Of a stretch of 64,000 nt of DNA, positions 17,597 through 44,697 are shown piece after piece (within the stretch, counting starts at the first letter, position 1; each line of letters opens with the position of its first letter). The notes beneath the pieces are model-generated. The model worked only from the letters and a program-made list of their open reading frames with translations. It did not search any database and was not told the origin of the DNA. The position numbers and the translations under genes are program-made. Location of the stretch: the NCBI RefSeq assembly GCF_032118995.1, contig NC_092660.1:20446501-20510500 (forward strand), written 5' to 3'. The DNA is from Asterias amurensis (taxonomy: Eukaryota; Echinodermata; Asteroidea; Forcipulatida; Asteriidae).

Positions 17597-19130
17597 TTAT
17601 AACTTCCATGTATCTTTAACCATCTTGACGAATTTAGCGTCGGAGAGTCGAGCCATCCCAGCATAATAATTCAAAAATTCCTCCTTGGATACCTGGAAGG
17701 TAAGAAACATTTCCTATATAAACGGAATCCTCGCACTTTTATAAACAAAAACAAATCAGTTAGGTTTTTATATGGCACCCTGTGAAAAAGACACGACTAA
17801 ATTTTGTTTTGATCATTAAAAAAAATTCCTTTTAGACGACAAAAAAGTGAGCAGGGACCCATCAAGCGGCTTGATTGAATTTATAAGTTACAACTTATTT
17901 ACATTCAATGTCCTTGGTCCAAAGATCAAACGAAAGAGGAAGAAGACGAAAAAAGAAGAAGACAAATTGTTTTGTTTTGTGTTGTTGCTTTCCAAACACG
18001 CTGTCATAAGTTTTCATATATTCATTTTTTTGCTGAAAAAATCTTACCTTTTTATCATTGTTCTTATCAAACATCAACAGAAACCGATTGGCCGCCTCTT
18101 CGTTCGTCATCACACTGCGTGCGCGCGCATTCTTGAAGTCGTAGCCGTCTTTCAAGTCGTCCATGTCGATCACGCCGCTGCCGTCCTTGTCTAGCTTATG
18201 GTAGGCTTGCATAACGACTTCGAGTTTAGCCTCTGACAAGCAGCCCTATGCAATGAGTAATAAAATGGATCAACTTATGAGGAACAACTTTCTTTAAAAT
18301 GATTCAAATAAAACAGGTTGACGGAGAGACCACTAGCAACATTTCTATTCTTATGAACGATTTTTTCTTCTGTACACCAAAATTGCCACTGTCGTTTGGT
18401 GCTTTTCAATGGGGATTATTAAAAACGATTTGTCTTTTAAAACGATTGTTGAAAGGGAATCTGTAAAAAAAATCAGGAAATTTCTTGAGGATGCCAATAA
18501 GCAAAACAAAGGGTGCTTAGGCTATTGTCAGTAAACCAGTTGAGAACACACACAAGCGCAATACTGTCAAATCTTCTCGTTTGTTCATAAAAATACACTT
18601 TTGCTTAGACATAATATTCTGCTATGGTTAGCACATACAACAAATTGCTTTCCGGTAAGCAGCTTTATGAAATTTCGCTAGGGTTATAAGAGCACACCAT
18701 GTTTGGTGTTTTTAACCATACTAATTGCTTTTTCCATTTTCCGTGCAGGCCTGCCCCAGCTTTACTTTAACAACCAACACCTTATTTTTTCACGTACCCT
18801 GACAGCTACGAAGAATTCATTCAAATCCAAAGTCTTGGACCCGTCTTTGTCGAGTTCTGTGAAGACATTCTGAACTTCTTCTTCGCTCATTTCAAGACCA
18901 AGTTCTTTGTTGATCCCGTGAGAGAGTTCATCCATAGTCAGTACACTATCTTTGTCTCTATCCATTTCGGTAAGGAGGCTGGATGACAAAATAATAATAA
19001 TTTTAGCATCAGACGAAAAAAATGTTCAGTGTCTGCTCAATGTTTACCCTAGATTAGGGCCTACTTACTCTGCAAGTTTCTTGATATTTTCCACTCCACT
19101 GTCGAGCAGCTTGGATCTCAACTTCTCCAT
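17597..19130 (-). CDS. Calcyphosin-like EF-hand protein A (178 aa)
   Basis: Exons in order: 19069-19130, 18798-18978, 18048-18245 and 17597-17692, 537 nt including TAA. It starts MEKLRSKLLDSGVENIKKLA. Four EF-hand loops are visible: DRDKDSVLTMDE, DKDGSKTLDLNE, DKDGSGVIDMDD and DKNNDKKVSKEE, all with acidic residues at positions 1, 3 and 5 or close equivalents, so Ca2+ binding is likely in all four. The end, EEFLNYYAGM...TWKL, matches the CAPS/CAPSL C-terminus. Calcyphosins are soluble Ca2+ sensors, and CAPSL is linked to ciliated cells. Intron positions and phases equal those of genes B-D. The third exon is 15 nt shorter than the 213 nt of the others, so this is the most diverged copy. A strong donor at 21973-21978 (minus) and an acceptor near 19148 hint at a 5' UTR exon further right. 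Confidence 0.88.
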
Positions 19131-24558: not shown

Positions 24559-27500
24559 TTAGACTGTCCAGAATGACCTTATCGCAGCCGCGAAGTCTGC
24601 ATCACTGTAGGTAGTAAGCATGCTGCTGTAGTACTTGGTGAACTCTGCCAGTGTCACCTACACGAGGGGAAAGATTGACACTTTAGTCACTACAAGTACA
24701 TAAAACCTATGATACCACGTCTAAATAATCTTCTTTCTGTACAATCGACTTGGCGGCTACAGTTAACACGACAGCGATTAAACTGGGCTCCTTTGCTTAA
24801 TTTTAGCTTGGGAAAAAATGTAACAATAATTGACAAGACCTTGCAAAAGAACTTGGACAATAGAAACAAGTAATTGTTGTCCCTTTCCCACGAGGTACAT
24901 TTTGTAAAAATGTATAACCATGCTAAAACTTAGCAAGGAACCTTTGCTAAATTAATTGCTATCGTGTGAAAGGGGCTTTGGGCTACGTACAGAGCCCAAC
25001 ACAGTAGCAGTAGCTGCAGGCACCACATGGTTACAGCATCAGTCTGCTAGTTATACGTCATTGCAATTGAAACCACTGGTTTGTTGAACTGTTGTCTAGT
25101 GTTATTAGCAAGGATTAATTAACATAGAAACGGTGTGGCACGTACAAACCTCTTATGATAGCGCCCTCTTTTGAAGAATCTCCGTCCTTGTGAGTAACGA
25201 CACTTTGTAAAAGTGGTTCTGTACACACAGACCGTAACCAGAGTCACCAAATTAAAGGAACACGTTGCCTTGGATCGGTCGAGTTGGTCTTTGAAATGCG
25301 TTTGTAACCGTTTGTTATAAAATGCATATGATTGACAAGATGTTAAATGTAGAATATAATGATCCACACAAGTATCACTCGAAATTGCTTGGTTTTTCTG
25401 TTATCTCATCGACTAACACGGTCGGCCATTTGTGTGACTCCCCTAAATGGCCGACCGTGTTAGTTCGCAGAGTAAAAGGAAAACCACGCAATTTCGACGC
25501 AAATTCGTGTGGATCATTGTATTCTACTTTTTAAACATCTTTCTACCCATATGCATTCTATATAACGAGCGGTTACAAACGCTTTTCAAAGACCAACTCG
25601 ACCGACCCATGGTGACGTGTTCGTTTGATCCCCATCTCACCTTCCCATCTCTAGTAGCTACATCAGGCTCGTAGTTATTCAATATTGCCTCGAAAAGCTG
25701 TTCCTCCGTCTTCCTACCGCTCTTATAGTCCGGGTTATATCTGACGTTAAAGACACCCTTCATGTCGGCTGGGTCGATGACGCCATCGCCGTTCTTATCG
25801 GCCTTCTTGAAAACGGTCTCGATTATTGTCTTCCTGGCCTCAGACATAACTGGCTGAGAAGAAGGAAAATAATACTCGAGCATTAAGGACCAGTGCATGG
25901 AGATATTAAATCAGTTTTAACTTTGTGGAATTCAACAAACGTTTTAATTGTCGAGTCAGTTTATATGGTGTCAATGTTGATTTTGTTAGTTGCCCCAATA
26001 CGAGAAATGTCTAAACGTGACTCCCGTGGTAGGAGTGGGGAAAGAAACCCCGTGCCCGTATCAAAACTGAACGCCTTGGGAAAAGTCTAAGTCACGAGCC
26101 AGGGGTCGATTTCACAAAGAGTTAGGACTAGTCCTAACTTAGGACTAGTTCTAGGAGATATACAAATTGCATGGATAGTCTTAAGTTAGGACGAGTAACC
26201 GGTCCTAACTCGAGATAAGACTAGTCCTAACTCTTTGTGAAATCCACCCCAGATCCCCCAAATTCACCCCAAAAAACCTTAAAACCTTCTTGCGCAAAAA
26301 AAATAAGGGCAGATGGCCTTGAATTTGGCCTCTCTTCCACAAAAGATTTTCAAGCTGCGATGCGCCTCAAGTAAACTCACCCCTACCCCCTCCCTCCCTC
26401 CACTAACATCCAGGCGGCGCTCATGCTCCGGTGCATTTTTTTTTGTCATTTGCCTCCCCCTCCTCAGTACATCAATAGTCAATAGTAAACAAATCATTAA
26501 AACAAACCAATAGACAGCAATAGCATTTGTTTAAATACACCTTTTAGAATCAAATAAATTAATAAATTAATAAATTAATAAAATAACTCAAAATAGAATA
26601 ACATTCCGGATTCCGGGCCTGTGAAATTAAACCCAAATTCATAATCCTTAATACCTTGGCTGCATCATAAAACTCATCTAAGCTGAGACTGCCGTCTCCG
26701 TCTACGTCCAATGAGGTCAGTATAGCCTTGATATCTTCCGCGCTGGCACTTATACCCATATCATGGATGCCTTCTGAGAACTCTTCCAAGGACAAAGACC
26801 AACTACGGTCGTCATCAAAGATTTTAAATTTCCTAAAACGGTCACAGAGAGAAATAAAGATACTTAAGGTAAGATCTCCATTTCGAAGGAGTTGGAAACT
26901 TTTAAACGCTAGGTGGCAGCAGAGATACGAGGTAAAAATAATGTCAATAGACCTTTTTATGTAGTTGATACTGAAAATATTGAAATATCGTAACTGAATA
27001 TCCATATCTACACGTTTTTGCATATATCAGTATAACAATCAAGGGGCTAGAATGGCATGTTTTATTTTGCTTTCACTTTTTCATGAATAAAGACAGTTAT
27101 TTATTTTTAAACAATTGTTTTACTGTTATCGCGTATTGTAGTCTAAAATAATGAGCAGAGTAAAACAAATTTATGCAAAACTAACATATAACATTTTTTA
27201 CCCCCACTTTCTTAAACATATGACTCCTCTCACAAAAGGGGCAGAAATAAAGACAGTTATTATAGTTGTTAATTTTTAAATAATAATTTGACTGTCATTA
27301 TGTATTTTAGTCTGTAGTCAAAAAACTGAGCTGAAGAAAATTAAAATAGTCAAAACTAACAGATTAAATTTGTTACCCCCACTTTCTTGAAACGTAGCCC
27401 CTCCCCTAAATGGGCGAGATCTGAGATGGTTCTAAGTCTTAAAATGATCTTTAGGGTATACATGTATATAACAACTTTAGGAAGCTTTTACCATAAAGTG

Positions 27501-29050
27501 AAACATTTTCCCACATGGTCCTTAGCAGCTGGACTATTTCGCAAAATACTCGAACTTTTGATAAGACTTCCATAAATTTAGGTTTTAAAGTTGGTCCTAT
27601 ATTTAGCTGGGGAGGTGGGTTATTGCTTTCATAGCAGAAAACCATATTTGCGAGGAAATGAGCAAAAATTCATAACGGCTGCCCTGCCAAAAAATGAAAA
27701 GAAATCTGAGATTAAGCTGTCCGAACCAATCGACCAGACGGCCGACGAACATTTCATGTCTCGATTCTCTAGATTATGTTATTAAGTGACTCACTTGCCC
27801 AGCCGATTCACTTTATTTAACTCGAACAACTTGGCTTGGAGTTCGCCCCTTGCGGAGATGGACTGCAGATACAAAAGAGAAGATAGTTCACAAATATATT
27901 ACTTATACCGTTATCTACTGAGCGAACAGAAACTTTGCAGCCGTCGATTTCACAAAACTCTCCGCAAACTTAGGATTAATCTATAGGACTTAGGATGAGT
28001 TAAAGTTCCGTAACCATAGACGTTGTGACGCATTGAACCCATCCTTAGTTACGACGAGTAACTCGAGACTCGTTTCATAAAATCGGCTGCTTGTTCAGAA
28101 TAATACATAAAACGTCACAGACAATGTACTGCCAAGATGGACATTGGTAAAAAAGAAATCATCCCAGAGTTAGCCACACCATCTGTATTGACATCAACTC
28201 CAGCTAGAACAGAGCCCAATTTCATAGAGTAGTTTTCAAAGCACATAAACTAGCTTTAACACAACAAAAATATGCTAAAATGCAATTTCACAGACTGATA
28301 TCTTGCTGAGTGTTGCTTAAAGCAGAAATCTTCTATAGACTGATATCTTGCTGAGTGTTGCTTAAAGCAGAAATCTTCTAAGCAACATTTTCTGCGTAAG
28401 CAGCTGTATGAAATAGGATCCTGAAGCTCACTACACGGAACAAGATTTTTTAAAGGCAGTGGACACTATTGGTAACACTAAAAATAATTGTTAGCAGAAA
28501 CTATTACTTGGTGATGAGCAACGGTGAGCTGTTGATAGTATAAAACATTGTGAGAATGGGCTCGCATTTTTTGAGAAGGAAGTAATTTCTCATTCAAATA
28601 TTATAATTGATTTTGAGGCCTCAGCTGAGGTCTCAAATTCAAGGCATCTGAGAAAGCACACAACTTGTGCAACAAGGGTATTTTTTCTTCCACTATTCTC
28701 TCGCCACGTGACGGCCAATTGAGTTAAAATTTTCACAGATTTGTTTTTTAATGCATATTGAAATACAACAAAAGAGAAGACCTGCGGTCTGACAATTACC
28801 AAAGGTGTCCAGTGTATTGCAAAATGATTCGTCCCTTATTATACCAATGTGAAGAAGAAAAGAACCGCAGTCTCACCTTTTTCTCAAACAAGTCCTGGAG
28901 CTCATAGCCTCTTTCTTCATCTTCCAGACGCTCCCGAAGACGCTTGAGGAGGACTTCTAACTCTCCATCTAGGTTTCCTTCATCCTGGTACCCATTTACA
29001 AAGACGTTGATTACCAACGAAATAATTAACACAGCTTTGATTCCAAACAT
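24559..29050 (-). CDS. Secreted calcyphosin-like EF-hand protein B with prepro exon (243 aa)
   Basis: Exons in order: 28877-29050, 27795-27862, 26655-26832, 25641-25853 and 24559-24657, 732 nt including TAA. The first coding exon encodes MFGIKAVLIISLVINVFVNG, a textbook signal peptide with a likely cut after VNG. Residues 21-58 then form an acidic helical stretch (LEVLLKRLRERLEDEERGYE) that ends in LFEKK exactly at the exon border. The next exon (SISARGELQAKLFELNKVNR) has no start codon of its own, so translation depends on the prepro exon. EF loops: DDDRSWSLSLEE (tryptophan at position 6, odd), DVDGDGSLSLDE, DKNGDGVIDPAD, and a non-canonical fourth (ATRDGKVTLAEF). Exon sizes 178 and 213 equal those of C and D. 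A 5' UTR exon lies at about 30892-30953. Calcyphosins are normally cytosolic; secretion here is inferred. Confidence 0.85.
25252..25629. repeat. M2 fold-back element, copy 1
   Basis: A nearly full-length palindrome: TTAAAGGAACACGTTGCCTT at the left, a decayed GACGTGTTCGTTTGA at the right, and a central AATGGCCGACCGTGTTAG with its inverse. It lies in a gene B intron, ending about 11 bp from the donor of exon 25641-25853. Confidence 0.88.
26103..26250. repeat. Fold-back element with TTAGGACTAGTCCTAA repeats
   Basis: The ends GGGTCGATTTCACAAAGAGT and ACTCTTTGTGAAATCCACCC are inverted, and the inner part repeats the self-complementary motif GGACTAGTCC. It lies in a gene B intron. Confidence 0.75.
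27941..28089. repeat. Fold-back element related to 26103-26250
   Basis: The ends are GCCGTCGATTTCACAAAACT and GTTTCATAAAATCGGCTGC, with CTTAGGAT-type motifs inside. It lies in a gene B intron just upstream of exon 27795-27862. Confidence 0.6.
28213..28420. repeat. Fold-back element with an internal 45-bp tandem duplication
   Basis: The left end GCCCAATTTCATAGAGTAG and a right end CAGCTGTATGAAAT place it in the GCTTAGC-type fold-back family. Inside, a 45-bp unit starting AGACTGATATCTTGC is present twice in near-identical form (28292 and 28337), a young duplication. Confidence 0.65.
28450..28817. repeat. M1 fold-back element in gene B intron 1
   Basis: Starts TTTAAAGGCAGTGGACACTA, ends CAAAGGTGTCCAGTG. 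It ends about 60 bp from the donor of the prepro exon (28877). Confidence 0.85.
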
Positions 29051-29356
29051 GATGCTCCTATAAATAAAAGGACAAGTGTATAACTCATGAATTGGTACAA
29101 AATAGGCGCTTTCTGTATACAAAACGCACAATATTTGGTCTACAAAACAAGATAAAAACGGCCTTTTTACATGTTTTTTTTTAAAACAAACCGCTCAGCC
29201 TTGTTCATTAGGTGAAACGATTTAATAACGTTGTATTCATTGTAACTCACTGCAACATGTATGGGGCACCCAACTTAATAAACTGTCATCAACATATCCA
29301 CAAACACGAAAAGTACTTCGAATTTTGACAGTATTTTGACGATAATCCATCGAGTC

Positions 29357-29759
29357 TTAAAGACAGTGGACACTATTGGTAATTGTCAAAGACTAGTCTT
29401 CACATTGAGATACACCAAGTGTCCCACTTGGTGTATGACTCAACATAATTGAGCATAAAATAACAAACCTGTAAAAAATTGAGCTCAATCGGCCATCAAA
29501 CTTTCAAGATAATAATGAAAGAAAAAACACCATTGTCACACGAAGTTGTGTGCGTTTAGATGGTTTATTTCGAGATCTCAAGTTCTAAATCTGAGGTCTC
29601 GAAATGTCGTGGAAAATTACTTCTTTATCGAAAACTTTGGTATTTCATAGGGAGCCGTTTTTCACAATGTTTTACACCATCAACTTCTCCCAATTACTCG
29701 CCACCAAGAAAGGTTTTATACTAATAAATATTTTGAGCAATAGTGTCCACTGCCTTTAA
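29357..29759. repeat. M1 fold-back element in the gene B 5' intron
   Basis: Starts TTAAAGACAGTGGACACTAT, ends AATAGTGTCCACTGCCTTTAA. It is in the opposite internal orientation to 28450-28817: the GAGGTCTCGAAAT and GGGAGCCGTTTTTCACAATG blocks come in reverse order. Confidence 0.88.
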
Positions 29760-30180: not shown

Positions 30181-30891
30181 TATGCACGAAGGCCACGTAA
30201 ACTGCTTAAAAGCTTACCATAGCAAGCTGTATTATAGAGAGAAACATCTTTCGGCTCACCGAGCTTGCTGAAAGATATTTGCATAGGCGTGAATGAGTTC
30301 CTTGTACCTTTTATTGCAGTATTCAAATTCTTTAGAAGGTTCTTTATAAATGGTGATTTCGGCCTTCGAAGGTGACTTTTGCACAAACGAATGAAAACGG
30401 TTGATGCAAAAACTACGGCACACGGCGCCTACAGATGCCGAGTTTGCAAGGTGCCAAGGTGCCGAATTCAACGGTGCTGAGATTGCAACGTGCCAAGTTT
30501 GTTGGTGCTGAGAAAGGTTTTCCTATCACGCCACCACTTATTCATTCGATATGAAATAGTAGGATATTGTATCTAATTTACCTCAATGAGATATCCCTTT
30601 TTATAAAACAAGTGAACAAGTGGTGGCAGGATACGGAAACTTATCCCGAGAGGAATGCATAGGACTAGGCCTACAACTAAACATACAAAGAACTCGCTTA
30701 CATTATCTCGTTTAGAGATTATGCGGAAAACCTTCCGTTTGAGTAAATTGGGATGGATAGACCTACTATTTTATTTTATAACGAAGGAAAAAGTGATGAC
30801 AGGATACGGAAACCTTTCCGATTATGCAAATACAACATAGGCTTACTGAATTTCACAGAGGAAATTATACATCGATACACATTATACTTAC

Positions 30892-30953
30892 GAAAGTTCA
30901 GTCCGTCCAAGTTGTAGACCACTAGCTGGAGTGACTGTGGGGCCAAGAGATGC
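30892..30953 (-). other. Probable 5' UTR exon of gene B
   Basis: The exon ends in GGACGGACTGAACTTTC|GTAAGT on the minus strand. Its paralogue at 37554-37613 has the same end (GCGGACTGAACTTTC|GTAAGT) and the same CACTCCAGCTAGT core. The matching acceptor is TTTATTTATAG at 29058, seven bases before the gene B start codon. The 5' end is placed from the TATA-like box and is approximate. Confidence 0.65.
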
Positions 30954-31951: not shown

Positions 31952-33317
31952 TTTATTATTGAGCACAAATCAAAATTCTAGCAAGACGTTGTTAGCTATA
32001 AAATGTTTATTCTCCATAATATATTTCAGAGCCCTCGACATTTGAAGGTGTATGAAGAAAGACCATTTTTATGTTTATACCATTCAAAGTTTTTCTTTCT
32101 GTTGTCAAGAAATTGTTTTACAATATTCTGATCAATTGGTTATACGGTGATTTTGAAAACATTTTGTTAGACAAACAATACACAACCAATGTTGCTTTTC
32201 TTTGGCAAGGTCTAAACTATTTTTTTGCTTAGTCAGTCTTGGTAAATTAGAATTCAGTTACATTATTGGGGCTGAAATTGGGCGCTTTTCAAAAGGGCGG
32301 GTTTTTTAAGCTTTTAAAAGTACAAAATCTGTATAAAACTAGTTGATTAATAAACTATCGCCGTGCTAGACTTAAGTTCGTATATAGCTTCGATTTATAA
32401 TGCATCGACTACTTTTTGTCTGTAGTTGTTTTATCATGGAGATTTTTTCAGTTGTTCGACTGTAAAGCCTTTACAAATGGTTTATTATGAAGCCTTTTCC
32501 CTATATGGATCCTTTTCCCCAAATTTCATAGAGCCTTTTCCTTAAATTTATCATTGAGCCTTTTCCCAGTTCTATCATGGAGCCTTTTCCCAGTTCTATC
32601 ATGGAGCCTTTTCCCTGGTTTTATCATGGAGCCTTTTCCCAGTTCTATCATGGAGCCTTTTCCCAGTTCCATCATGGAGCCTTTTCCCAGTTCTATCATG
32701 GAGCCTTTTCCCAGTTCTATCATGGAGCCTTTCCCAGTTCTACCATGGAGCCTTTCCCAGTTCTATCATGGAGCCTTTTCCCAGTTCTATCATGGAGCCT
32801 TTTCCCAGTTCTATCAACGAGCCTTTCCCAGTTCTGTCATGGAGCCTTTCCCAGTTCTATCATGGAGCCTTTCCCAGTTCTATCATGGAGCCTTTTCCCA
32901 GTTCTATCATGGAGCCTTTTCCCAGTTCTATCATGGAGCCTTTTCCCAGTTCTATCATGGAGCCTTTCTAATGGTTTTTATCATGGAGCCCTTCTAATGG
33001 TTTTTATCATGGAGCCTTTTCCTTAAATTTATCATGGAGCATTTTCCCAGTTCCATCATGGAGCCTTTTCCCTGGTTTTATCATGGATCCCTTTCACTCA
33101 ATTTATCATGGAGCCTTCCTAATGGTTTTTATCACGGAGCCTTTCTAATGGTTTTTATCTTGGAGCCCTTTCCATGGTTTTATATAGGAGCATTTCCCAT
33201 GGTTTTATCGTGGAGCCTTTTCCCTAGTTTTATGTTTGAGCCTTTCCCTGGTTTTATCATAAGCCTTTTTGAACATGGAATCTTTTTTTTCGTGGTCCAG
33301 TTGAGCTTTCTCGTGCT
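31952..33317 (-). other. Probable 3' UTR of gene C
   Basis: It aligns with the gene B 3' UTR at the far end: AAAATGTTTATTCTCC (plus strand, near 32000) carries the reverse-strand AATAAA at 32006-32011, with a second one at 31952-31957. The part next to the stop is filled by the minisatellite 32500-33280. Confidence 0.6.
32500..33280 (-). repeat. 24-bp minisatellite, about 30 units, in the gene C 3' UTR
   Basis: The unit on the plus strand is CAGTTCTATCATGGAGCCTTTTCC, nearly identical across 32560-32970 and more varied at both ends (TTTCTAATGG and TTCCCTGG variants). Because the unit is a multiple of three, both strands show long open frames (MEPFPSSI repeats on plus, MIELGKGS repeats on minus). 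These follow from the repeat and are not evidence of coding. Confidence 0.93.
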
Positions 33318-35566
33318 TTAGACTCCCCAATATGATTTCATCATTTCCTCGAAGTCTGCATCTTCAGGAAAAGCTTGGCCGATGCTTGCGTAGTAGCTCA
33401 TGAACTCCGCAAGTGTCACCTATAACACGAGGGGAAAGATTTACACTTAAGTCAATACATAGAGGACCATGTCAAAATTCCTTCCTATCACAACCATTGT
33501 AAGGTTTAGAGTATTTAATTTGCATAAAGCTGTACTCTCATTGTTAGGCCTGGTGCATACTTCATGCGAATGACGTCACAAATGTTTTGCAGAAGTTAAG
33601 CACATCTCAACTCTTCCGAATTATTTTTTGCGAATTTGTGACGTCAAAGTTCGTTTCACATTTGCATATGAAGTATGAACCAGTCTTTGGAGGGACTATG
33701 ATGCATGATGGTTTCGAAGCAGATAAAACGAAACTATGACCAAGATGCGGTGGGCATCACCTTCCACAATTATAAAATAATGAGAGGCCGATCACAAAAC
33801 AACAACCATGCAGGTTCGCAAACCGAGTGCAATTTTTAAATTGTATTATCACATCGTAAAAACAATTTAGACATACCGATTGCAAGATTTGTATTTTCCT
33901 GTAGGGTCGGGGTACCGGGGAATTTCTACCACCGGATGTTCTGCCCCCCCCCCCCTCCCCAATGGAAAATTAACATGGTCTCGAGGAGGAGGAATCAAAA
34001 GAGGGCGCAATCAGCATAAGTTTGTACATAGTTCGCCCTTCCTCCATGGTTCGACGTATGGGGAAAGGGTGGGGGGGGGGGGGTGAGGCACAGAAAATCT
34101 CGTGCCACACCAGGATCTCACCTTCCCGTCTCTGGTAGCTTGGTCGGGCTCAAAGGTATTTAAAAACTCTTCGAAAAGTTGTTCCTCCGTCTTCTTCCCG
34201 CTCTTAAAGGCCGGGTTCCAGGAGACGTTGAAGACACCCTTCAAGTCGACTGGGGTGATGAAACCATCGCCGCTCTTGTCGGCTTTCTTAAAGACGGCCT
34301 CGATCAAATTCTTCCTGTACTCGGACATGGGTGGCTGGAGAAGGAAGAAAAAAGAAAAGAGAAGAAGCGTTACGACCAGTGGAGATATAGTTTAACTTTA
34401 TGGAGATCAACTCACGTAATAGTGATTTTGTGGTGTGGTCGTTCCTTGTACGGGAAGCCTGTTTGTTTGCACCGCAATGAAGGGTTATGTACTGTAAACT
34501 GCCAATTCTTGGCATGAGTAGGAGACTACGCTTTTTAAAATAATCCTCCAATGAAGGAGGTGTGTATAACTGCGTTATAATAAAATCAAAAAGCAATCCA
34601 GTATACCATTGTGCAAAATAAAACAAACATCAAGTCATTTATACCCTTGCAGCTTCCAAAAACTCATCTATGTTGAGACTTCCTGATCCGTCTTTGTCCA
34701 ATGTCTTCATTACAGCACTGATTTCTTCGAAGCTCATATTAATCCCCATATCACGGATGCCTTTCGTGAACTCCTCAAGGGACAGCGAACCGCTACGGTC
34801 GTCATCCATGATTCGAAATTTCCTAAAATGTTTTACAGAGAAAAAACAAAGATACCAAAGATGATATTGTATTTAATTCAAAAGAGTTGTTTGAAACTTA
34901 AAAGACACTTGACACCTTTGGTAATTGTCAAAGACCAGTCTCTCACTAAATAACAAACCTGTGAACATTTGAACTCAATTGGTCGTCGAAGTTGAGAGAT
35001 AATAATGGAAGAAAAACACTCTTGTCACACGAAGTTGTGTGCTTTCAGATGCTTGATTTTGGGACCTCAAAATCTAATTCTGAGGTCTCGAAATCATTTT
35101 TTTTTCCGTGGAAAATTACTTCTTTCTCGAAAACAACCTAACTTCAGAGGAAGCAATTTCTCACAATGTTTTATACTATCAACCTCCCCATTACTCGTTA
35201 CCAAGTAAGGTTTTATGCTAACAATTATTTTGAGTAATTACCAATAGTGTCCAGTGCCTTTAACGCTAGGTGGCCGCAGAGAGGGTTCTGATCTAGACTG
35301 GTCCCTTGTCATTATCCATATGACAGTTTTTGTGAACACATGTACGGATTTTATTGCAAACCTCATGAAAGCACGTGGCTTTTTGAGATATCAATTGACA
35401 TTATGATTTCATGCAAACAGCGTACATGTTAATTAACCAATCGACCGGAGGGCCGACGACCATTTCATGTGTCGATTCTCTATAATATTTTACAATGGAC
35501 TCACCTGCCAAGCCGTCTGAGGTTGGCCACATTCTTCTCAACAAGCTGTGCTCTGAGCTTCTCCAT
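33318..35566 (-). CDS. Calcyphosin-like EF-hand protein C (184 aa)
   Basis: Exons in order: 35505-35566, 34645-34822, 34122-34334 and 33318-33419, 555 nt including TAA. It starts MEKLRAQLVEKNVANLRRLG with no signal peptide, so it should be cytosolic. EF loops: DDDRSGSLSLEE, DKDGSGSLNIDE, DKSGDGFITPVD, and a non-canonical fourth (QATRDGKVTLAEF). The linker RPPMSEYRK matches the RPPMSRARK of CAPSL. Exons 2 and 3 are the same length as in B (178 and 213 nt), and the protein is the closest relative of B in the window. The coding exon has its own acceptor (CACTAAG, just upstream of the ATG) and is probably fed by the 5' UTR exon 37554-37613. M1 fold-back elements occupy two introns. Confidence 0.9.
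33548..33683. repeat. Fold-back element with TGACGTCA-like arms
   Basis: The ends CTGGTGCATACTTCATGCG and CATATGAAGTATGAACCAG are inverted, with inner GACGTCACAAAT and TTTGTGACGTCA. A gene C intron holds it. Related elements lie at 41125 and 42871. Confidence 0.75.
34898..35263. repeat. M1 fold-back element in a gene C intron
   Basis: Starts TTAAAAGACACTTGACACCT, ends CCAATAGTGTCCAGTGCCTTT. It is about 75 bp from exon 34645-34822. Confidence 0.85.
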
Positions 35567-35939
35567 TGTGCCTTAGTGATGGTAATGAGTAGCCGTTTGC
35601 TACACTGCAAATAATTATGAAAGAAACAATTGTTTGTACCAAGCATAAAGCATTTTGTTATTACTGAGCGAACCATAGAGGGCGCTAGTGGCAAGCATGT
35701 TACAGACTTTTCACGGTGTGCATTCACTAATTACGGGGGGGGGGGGGGTGGTGATTAACATAAATTTGATACAAGATTTTAAGTTACATGGTCCGATTTT
35801 CGTCTAAAGAATTTTGTTTAAACTCTAAGCGGTTCTTGACAGATGGTGCAATTTTCAAATCGAAAAAAAAAGAACATGAACAAAATTTCCAGAGGAGCGT
35901 GATTTTAAGTCAGAACCCCGACAATAATCCATTGTTCCT

Positions 35940-36073
35940 TTTCGTGTAATTTCCTAAATTAAAGCAGTTGATTTCAAATTTTCACAGGTTTGTTATTTTG
36001 TAAATAATATGTTAAGATACCAAGTGAGAAGAATGCGATTTGACAACTAGCAAATGTGTCCAGTGTCTTTAAA
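35940..36073. repeat. M1 element, right half only
   Basis: It keeps TTTTCACAGGTTTGTTATTTT and ends AAATGTGTCCAGTGTCTTTAA. The left half is not recognisable. Confidence 0.65.
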
Positions 36074-36385
36074 GAAATAAGATGCCATTGATTGAAGATT
36101 TTCTAGTTTTAATTTAATTAGGCAATGGAACCACAAACAAGGAAATGATTCATGGGCTTTCCTATTAACTGCACACTGAAGTTTGTAAGTATGACGTAGT
36201 TCCTAAAGCCAAGCCCACATGCTGCTGATCAATATCAAGGTTTTCAAATAGTTAATCTGAAAGGAAAACATAGTTGGTCGTGCCTTTCCAAATAGTTCTC
36301 TAGAGCATGAGGTCTTCAGTCTCGCAGCTAATATCAGTGACATACGAACGTTCGTTGACAACTGAGAAATTGTTTGTAAATCTAT

Positions 36386-36471
36386 AAGTACGACATCAGG
36401 CAGGGCTGTGCGATGGACCGAGCCGCTAGTACGACATCAGGCTGGGCTGTGCGATGGACCGAGCCGCTAGC
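36386..36471. repeat. 41-bp direct duplication
   Basis: Two near-identical copies of a unit starting AGTACGACATCAGG and ending GGACCGAGCCGCT, differing at two positions. It lies in the gene C 5' intron. Confidence 0.85.
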
Positions 36472-37553
36472 ACCACGTATTCAAAGTCTCCAAGGACAGC
36501 CGGAAACTGATTAAAAGTTTACAATTGAAAGTTCTATAAAAAGAACATTGTTCGGTTCACTGAGCTTTAGGGGAAGATATTTACCCGTCGTGAATTATTT
36601 CATTCACACAAGTTTTTACTCTTTACTCAAATTCTTTTGATGGAATGCACACATCGTGATGTTGTTGGTTGTCGAAATGTAATGATTTCAGATATAAAAA
36701 ATTAAGGATACTTTACTTAACTCTCGTCGTGGTCTGCTGCTTTGCGTAGGCCTATAAATGGTGTAAGCCTAATCCTTTTTGCTTGTATGCATAGCTTGTT
36801 AATTACACTATACGTACATGCCCTTGCATATGTTTTTTTATATTTTTTTTATCCTAGTTCTTTTCGGGGGGGGGGGGCAACCTTTCTCCCCAACCATCTA
36901 AGATTTAAACAATATTTGTTTGACTGCTTTTATTAATGACCCCGCCGAAATAAAAATGCAAAATATACAAACAGTATAGTGAGCAGGAAAATACTTCTAT
37001 ATTCTGCCTTGCACCTTTTATCTACTCATTTTTACCTAAAGGAGTATCCTTTTTGAATAAATAAGGCACTTATTTATTTGTAACAAATTAAAAAGTGGTG
37101 GCAGGGTACTGCTTCTTTCGTGCATCATCTCGTCCCATAGAGAGTCGGGGGAAATAGCTGTATCAACTACCCTTTTCTTTGTCAAAAGCCTTTTCCAAAA
37201 GAACAAAATTTGTAATCTTAATTATTGGAACAATGTTTGGTCATTTGGAATAAAGAGTTGATAAAGAGTCGAATACAGTTAGACTTATGTCAAGTGGAAG
37301 ACGCATGCATCAGATAATTGTCATTATTATCAAAGTTGGACTTTGGAATTGATTCAAAGAACAACATACCAGACGAATGGGTTTATCGACTATAATGGAT
37401 ACCATAATGACTCGATCAGAGAGGGTTGCTTTACGACTGGTATACCAACAACTCTTTTACATTACATTGTCTCATTTACATATTATGAAAAACAACAAAC
37501 TTGTCGACAATTTGTTGTCAATCACAGAGGAAACTAATTAAAATTGTACTTAC

Positions 37554-37613
37554 GAAAGTTCAGTCCGCCAATGTTTCCGATTACTAGCTGGAGTGCTTGA
37601 GGCCAGTAGATGC
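37554..37613 (-). other. Probable 5' UTR exon of gene C
   Basis: It ends GGCGGACTGAACTTTC|GTAAGT on the minus strand and shares CACTCCAGCTAGT with the gene B exon 30892-30953. A TATA-like CTACATAAA (37622-37629) lies just upstream. The 5' end is approximate. Confidence 0.62.

Positions 37614-42136: not shown

Positions 42137-44697
<2,561 letters not shown>

Follow-up and report, generated by a model that had tools for sequence, protein, structure and literature searches.

The sea star Asterias amurensis has an exon encoding a signal peptide and an acidic pro-region that precedes the coding exons of two different protein families. It was found in gene B, a calcyphosin-like EF-hand gene located in the 64,000-nucleotide stretch C13:20446501-20510500 (the window), and in front of four cofilin/ADF-like genes elsewhere in the assembly. 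This export exon forms a small dispersed family, which the original prediction had not seen. That prediction proposed that gene B gained a prepro exon, a claim that is now well supported, the likely source being the four cofilin/ADF-like genes with the same exon. Gene B is probably a calcyphosin-like gene into whose first intron the export exon was copied, an arrangement that would give a secreted EF-hand protein. Since it precedes one calcyphosin-like and four cofilin-like proteins, the exon looks like a portable export tag.

Splicing of gene B in silico yielded an intact reading frame of 243 amino acids, in which the 58-residue exon ending in KK is followed by the calcyphosin-like body, with GT-AG splice sites and phases 0, 2, 0 and 0. 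The canonical junctions and the intact frame agree with the proposal that the signal exon would be spliced to the body in frame and in phase 0. The gene extends past the limits first given for it, to a noncoding exon at about 30.9 kb. The body had been predicted to lack a start of its own, and the frame bears this out: its first in-frame ATG is codon 48, 3′ of the EF-hand 1 loop, and, read upstream from the body acceptor, the frame is closed by a stop at the 13th codon before any ATG is reached. Another initiation codon for gene B, which would have told against the proposal, was found neither before body codon 48 nor in the 109 bases around and including the 5′ exon (31000-30892). Because the first body ATG is codon 48, gene B without the signal exon would lose its first EF-hand loop.

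The spliced gene B protein matched Pfam EF-hand_7 at 1.7e-19, and the best relatives of residues 76-242 in PDB (phmmer) were CAPSL (11yj, 9e-33) and CAPS (3e3r, 8.3e-31). Like CAPS and CAPSL, the body has three recognisable EF loops, of which loops 2 and 3 appear canonical on inspection, and Ca2+ binding is predicted from them. Unlike these proteins, gene B lacks an ATG on the conserved N-terminal exon where calcyphosins start and has the prepro exon in front instead; its body contains no cysteine, and position 6 of EF-hand loop 1 is W (G in gene C). Gene C, the tandem sister gene in the window, has an ATG of its own on the matching exon and no signal exon, as predicted. The splice phases of gene C match those of the gene B body, and 113 of 181 aligned residues are identical. 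In a MAFFT alignment of the start regions the gene C ATG stands opposite AGG in gene B, the alignment being gappy further upstream. Both genes share the promoter and first exon (62.8% over 449 columns, 31245-30853 against 37952-37522), as well as an intron block farther down (30339-30164 against 36643-36474). No DNA match between B and C was found over the export exon, and a profile of the five exons run on the window gave nothing beyond the gene B exon better than E 5.7.

The A. amurensis assembly (491,506,623 bases, 23 contigs) was searched with the 58-residue exon, and five places were found at E-values up to 10: gene B and four paralogous exons, one on C19, two on C5 (C5a and C5b) and one on C3 (E = 2.9e-26 to 8.3e-18), on three chromosomes other than that of gene B. 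Identity to the gene B exon over the matched parts was 84% for C19, 76% for each of the C5 copies and 71% for C3. A second protein query, a C5 copy, recovered the same five places, although copies more diverged than these could escape both protein queries, and a DNA query recovered four of the five. Among the five places, gene B is the only calcyphosin-like member. At the DNA level the copies resemble each other over the exon and a little way upstream of it, and the likeness stops at the donor or close to it. Every copy shows, by eye, an AG acceptor followed directly by a short leader and the ATG. In the alignment of the five, thirty columns are invariant. As 20 of them fall within residues 21-52 and 10 within residues 1-20, the pro-region is at least as conserved as the signal, and residues 29-48 are invariant at 16 of 20 positions. 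The C19 exon has three additional codons, with an ATG immediately before the donor. This ATG may be the old cofilin start, as cofilin genes often have an intron directly behind the start codon. A chance reading frame had also been considered as an explanation of the export exon, and it was ruled out by the four paralogs.

A cofilin/ADF coding exon lies downstream of each of the four other export exons, at a distance of 0.9-3.1 kb, on the same strand and with a phase-0 junction. The spliced C19 protein matched Pfam Cofilin_ADF (PF00241) almost whole, at 7.7e-24 over positions 2-125 of 125, and the products of exon 2 alone matched the same family for C5b (1.8e-11, 2-78), C5a (3.5e-9, 7-78) and C3 (9.3e-11, 5-78). 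In a Pfam search of the genome, exon-3 ADF-H matches were listed for C3 and C5b and none for C5a. The best PDB relatives of the spliced C19 and C5b bodies were actophorin and cofilin-type structures. One cofilin-like exon used as a genome query found just these four places. The genome Pfam search gave 19 ADF-H matches, seven of them in exons of the four partner genes and 12 in six other loci; in the 14-20 kb around each of these six loci the export exon profile reached a best E of 1.0, and an exon outside those stretches would escape. One of the six, at C1:26.77 Mb, presumably resembles starfish egg depactin. Cofilins are a conserved family. The partner genes differ from ADF/cofilin in having a signal peptide and a pro-region, and their paralogous proteins diverge fast. 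EF-hand pieces were looked for in the three cofilin regions, with one weak match (E 0.76, C19). Insertion of a whole cofilin gene was considered as the origin of the exon in gene B and rejected, since no ADF-H match better than E 0.44 was found in the window; in a control, the same ADF-H queries recovered their own loci (7, 14 and 7 hits).

The start of the exon was evaluated with a home-made signal-peptide rule (cut-off 2.5). The first 58 codons of gene B passed, as anticipated, and so did three of the other four copies, which makes four of five; in the window, 154 ATG frames are open over this length, that of gene B included, and three of them passed. All five copies carry the string VNGY, in agreement with the -3,-1 rule of signal cleavage. 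In four of the five copies the pro-region is followed by a basic motif and then the phase-0 end: KK in gene B, RR in C19, KR in C5b and RIFR in C5a. Such motifs are cleavage sites, KK being a less usual one. The earlier suggestion that KK could be a cleavage site gains support indirectly, from the other basic motifs that occupy the same place in three copies. The hydrophobic start could instead be an uncleaved anchor or a signal for retention in the endoplasmic reticulum (ER) or granules, with the domains staying luminal or membrane-held. Such a role would suit the strong conservation of residues 29-48, as expected of a sorting or retention helix, but the hydrophobic stretch is short, and both VNGY and the basic motif after the pro-region speak for cleavage; we regard retention as rather unlikely.

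The favored sequence of events can be outlined as follows. A ready-made export exon, complete with acceptor, leader, ATG, signal, pro-region, basic site and phase-0 donor, would have entered the first intron of gene B, the donor most likely being a member of a small secreted cofilin/ADF-like family, closest to the C19 copy. The noncoding first exon of gene B would now be spliced to the export exon and then to the old body, whose own start would have been lost. The product would enter the secretory pathway, and the signal peptide would be removed after VNG (residue 20). Either outside the cell or in granules, a cut after KK would then separate an acidic peptide of some 36 residues from the calcyphosin domain, which has no cysteine and is predicted to bind Ca2+. 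In general terms, the module would supply a start codon and an ER signal wherever a noncoding first exon has a phase-0 boundary downstream of it, and the pro-region would probably travel with the cargo before being cut at the basic site. Several observations weigh against this picture. The C19 copy narrowly fails the signal-peptide rule (2.46 against 2.5), and the amphipathicity of the pro-helix is not above that of shuffled sequences, since 148 to 459 of 2000 shuffles reach it (459 for gene B). The C3 copy (C3:8303354-8303530) has a TAA at codon 57 and would yield the leader peptide alone, so the export exon does not always belong to a full-length secreted protein. Finally, the tree of the five exons, in which gene B and C19 split from the other three (98/94), was built from short exons and has a midpoint root only.

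Selection on the exon and on the bodies was estimated by the method of Nei and Gojobori, as nonsynonymous (dN) and synonymous (dS) divergence, with bootstrap intervals. Across ten pairs of export exons dS was 0.30-0.55 and dN/dS 0.17-0.49, with an upper bootstrap limit of at least 1 in three of the ten pairs, all involving the C3 copy. For the gene B and C19 exons dN/dS was 0.17 (0.06-0.44) and dS 0.41 (0.20-0.73), and in this comparison the exon is under purifying selection. The B and C bodies gave a dN/dS of 0.35 (0.23-0.53) and a dS of 0.79 (0.55-1.18). These ratios bear on the possibility that the exon is a stray passenger in a gene B intron, unspliced to the body, while gene B uses an unseen start or decays. 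Constraint on both exon and body is not what such a passenger would lead one to expect, nor are the intact frame, phase and splice sites or a body with no start before EF-hand 1; the repeats found on both sides of the exon make a chance landing possible, yet we consider this explanation very improbable.

The cofilin bodies behave differently from the exon. Their six pairs had a dS of 0.64-1.08 and a dN/dS of 0.51-0.92, with an upper limit above 1 in three of the six; dN was 0.396-0.622 in the bodies versus 0.069-0.168 in the export exon. Over the four cofilin genes mean dS was 0.37 for the exon versus 0.78 for the body, a difference that fell to zero or below in 1 of 500 bootstraps. Given the lower exon dS, the copies of the exon seem to be of more recent date than the bodies, unless constraint acts on the synonymous sites of the exon. 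The gap would be explained more simply if the exon had been copied or converted from gene to gene, though this is not proven. The greater conservation of the exon could also mean that the pro-helix is the active product to be secreted, with the C-terminal domains as interchangeable carriers, in which case the C3 copy could be making a leader peptide only. However, that copy may simply be dead, the purifying selection on the gene B body relative to gene C indicates that the domain matters too, and the peptide strings had no match in the open literature. We find this idea doubtful. The C3 copy was noted separately as either a decayed gene or a source of a peptide-only product.

A further explanation is that the export exon was ancestral to B and C and was lost from C, or that the transfer ran from calcyphosin to cofilin. 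With a midpoint root only, the five-exon tree does not prove which way the exon was transferred; the five copies are about equally diverged at synonymous sites, and the dS interval of the B and C bodies overlaps that of the B and C19 exons. The point estimates, on the other hand, date the B/C split before the split of the B and C19 exons, four of the five copies lie in the cofilin family with gene B nearest to one of them, and the more CAPSL-like neighbor, gene D, begins with an ATG exon of its own. On balance an ancestral exon or a reverse transfer seems unlikely.

A conserved signal peptide with diverging cargo is known from conotoxin precursors, in which the cargo descends from one ancestor. 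The case for a shift from cytosolic to secreted is as a rule built on isolated examples in which the donor has left no trace. Here the likely donor family, the recipient, the unaltered sister and the shared exon are present in one assembly, and exon shuffling as the way in which a gene captures a signal peptide can therefore be tested directly. The nearest precedent appears to be the frog-skin "export exon" (Kuchler, Kreil and Sures 1989, listed among the references of PMC3731216), in which, going by the title, one homologous signal-peptide exon precedes different products. In A. amurensis, likewise, five homologous copies precede cargos of two families. The frog cargos are short secreted peptides, whereas those described here belong to two folded, normally cytosolic families on four chromosomes of one animal. 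The Hessian fly SSGP-11 precursors also combine a conserved signal peptide with diverging cargo, but in the accessible part of that report (PMC2990301) the cargos read as descendants of one ancestor, unlike the unrelated folds found here, and calcyphosine is mentioned there only as an unrelated control gene. Among the papers listed in searches of the open-access literature there was none on a secreted echinoderm calcyphosin that carries a signal peptide, and none on such a cofilin from a starfish; a search on exon shuffling yielded no paper, and the papers listed for signal-peptide exons include one on crinoid neuropeptides (PMC9793003). If secreted, proteins of the cofilin and calcyphosin type would be unusual extracellular tools, which might act, for instance, on released actin or Ca2+ in coelomic fluid. 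As the loops would always be filled in a Ca2+-rich fluid, a structural or buffering role for gene B would be likelier than sensing. More tentatively, and with less confidence than we place in the origin of gene B, in the lineage of this sea star a self-contained export exon may move or be converted from gene to gene and make cytosolic proteins secreted; the pro-helix may itself have a function that depends on its sequence, for instance in granule sorting or as a peptide released along with the cargo, and the secreted cofilins and calcyphosin may share one route.

Table 1. Features of genes B and C and of the repeats (window coordinates), and exons of the cofilin-like partner genes (assembly coordinates).
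Feature	Coordinates	Strand	Remarks
Gene B 5′ noncoding exon	30892..30945	-	donor at 30891; upstream limit guessed from a TATA-like stretch
Gene B export (prepro) exon	28877..29057	-	ATG 29050; predicted signal peptide 1-20, acidic pro-region 21-56, KK 57-58, phase-0 donor
Gene B body exon 1	27795..27862	-	no start codon; counterpart of the gene C start-codon exon
Gene B body exon 2	26655..26832	-	EF-hands 1 (DDDRSWSLSLEE) and 2 (DVDGDGSLSLDE)
Gene B body exon 3	25641..25853	-	EF-hand 3 (DKNGDGVIDPAD) and the linker after it
Gene B last exon	24559..24657	-	stop TAA
Sister gene C	33318..37588	-	184 aa; ATG 35566; noncoding first exon ends 37554; phases 2, 0, 0
C19 cofilin-like exons	2016176-2016453 + 2021446-2021623		ADF-H first part + rest
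C5a cofilin-like exons	5591504-5591230 + 5589944-5589782		ADF-H first part + rest
C5b cofilin-like exons	~5601.3-5601.0 kb + 5597.0-5596.9 kb		ADF-H first part + rest
C3 cofilin-like exons	8301440-8301166 + 8300971-8300806		ADF-H first part + rest
Short interspersed repeat copy	29356..29759	.	upstream of export exon
Second copy of that repeat, opposite orientation	28449..28818 (28450-28754 in flank test)	.	downstream of export exon

The inverted repeat copies flank the gene B export exon at 123 and 306 bp. In a post hoc test, 162 of 27000 random spots, drawn from nine regions with copies (a tenth, C1:26.77 Mb, was not used because it had none), were flanked by the repeat on both sides within 350 bp. 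At the four other export exons no such two-sided flanking within 350 bp was seen. The repeat family is common, since the 291 kb examined contain 61 copies after merging, and a role of the repeats as the vehicle of the exon, or as a composite transposon, is possible as a lead only. The intron of gene B between export exon and body also contains an exact 45-bp tandem duplication (28292-28380).

Four calcyphosin-related EF-hand genes stand in a tandem row on the minus strand, genes B and C having gene A on one side (about 18-19 kb) and gene D on the other (about 42-44.5 kb); with the EF-hand exon of gene B as a genome query, B, C, D and A were the best four of nine places. Gene A (about 17900-19025) is a further calcyphosin-related EF-hand gene, and gene D (42137-44510) looks by eye like a conserved CAPSL ortholog. 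B and C are the more diverged members of the row, with 69 of 185 residues identical between B and D and 83 of 184 between C and D. Just downstream of gene C lies a tandem array of a 24-bp unit (32526-33268; 24.5 copies with 88% match in 32526-33117), and by eye a trace of a similar 24-bp unit follows gene B at about 24540-24490.

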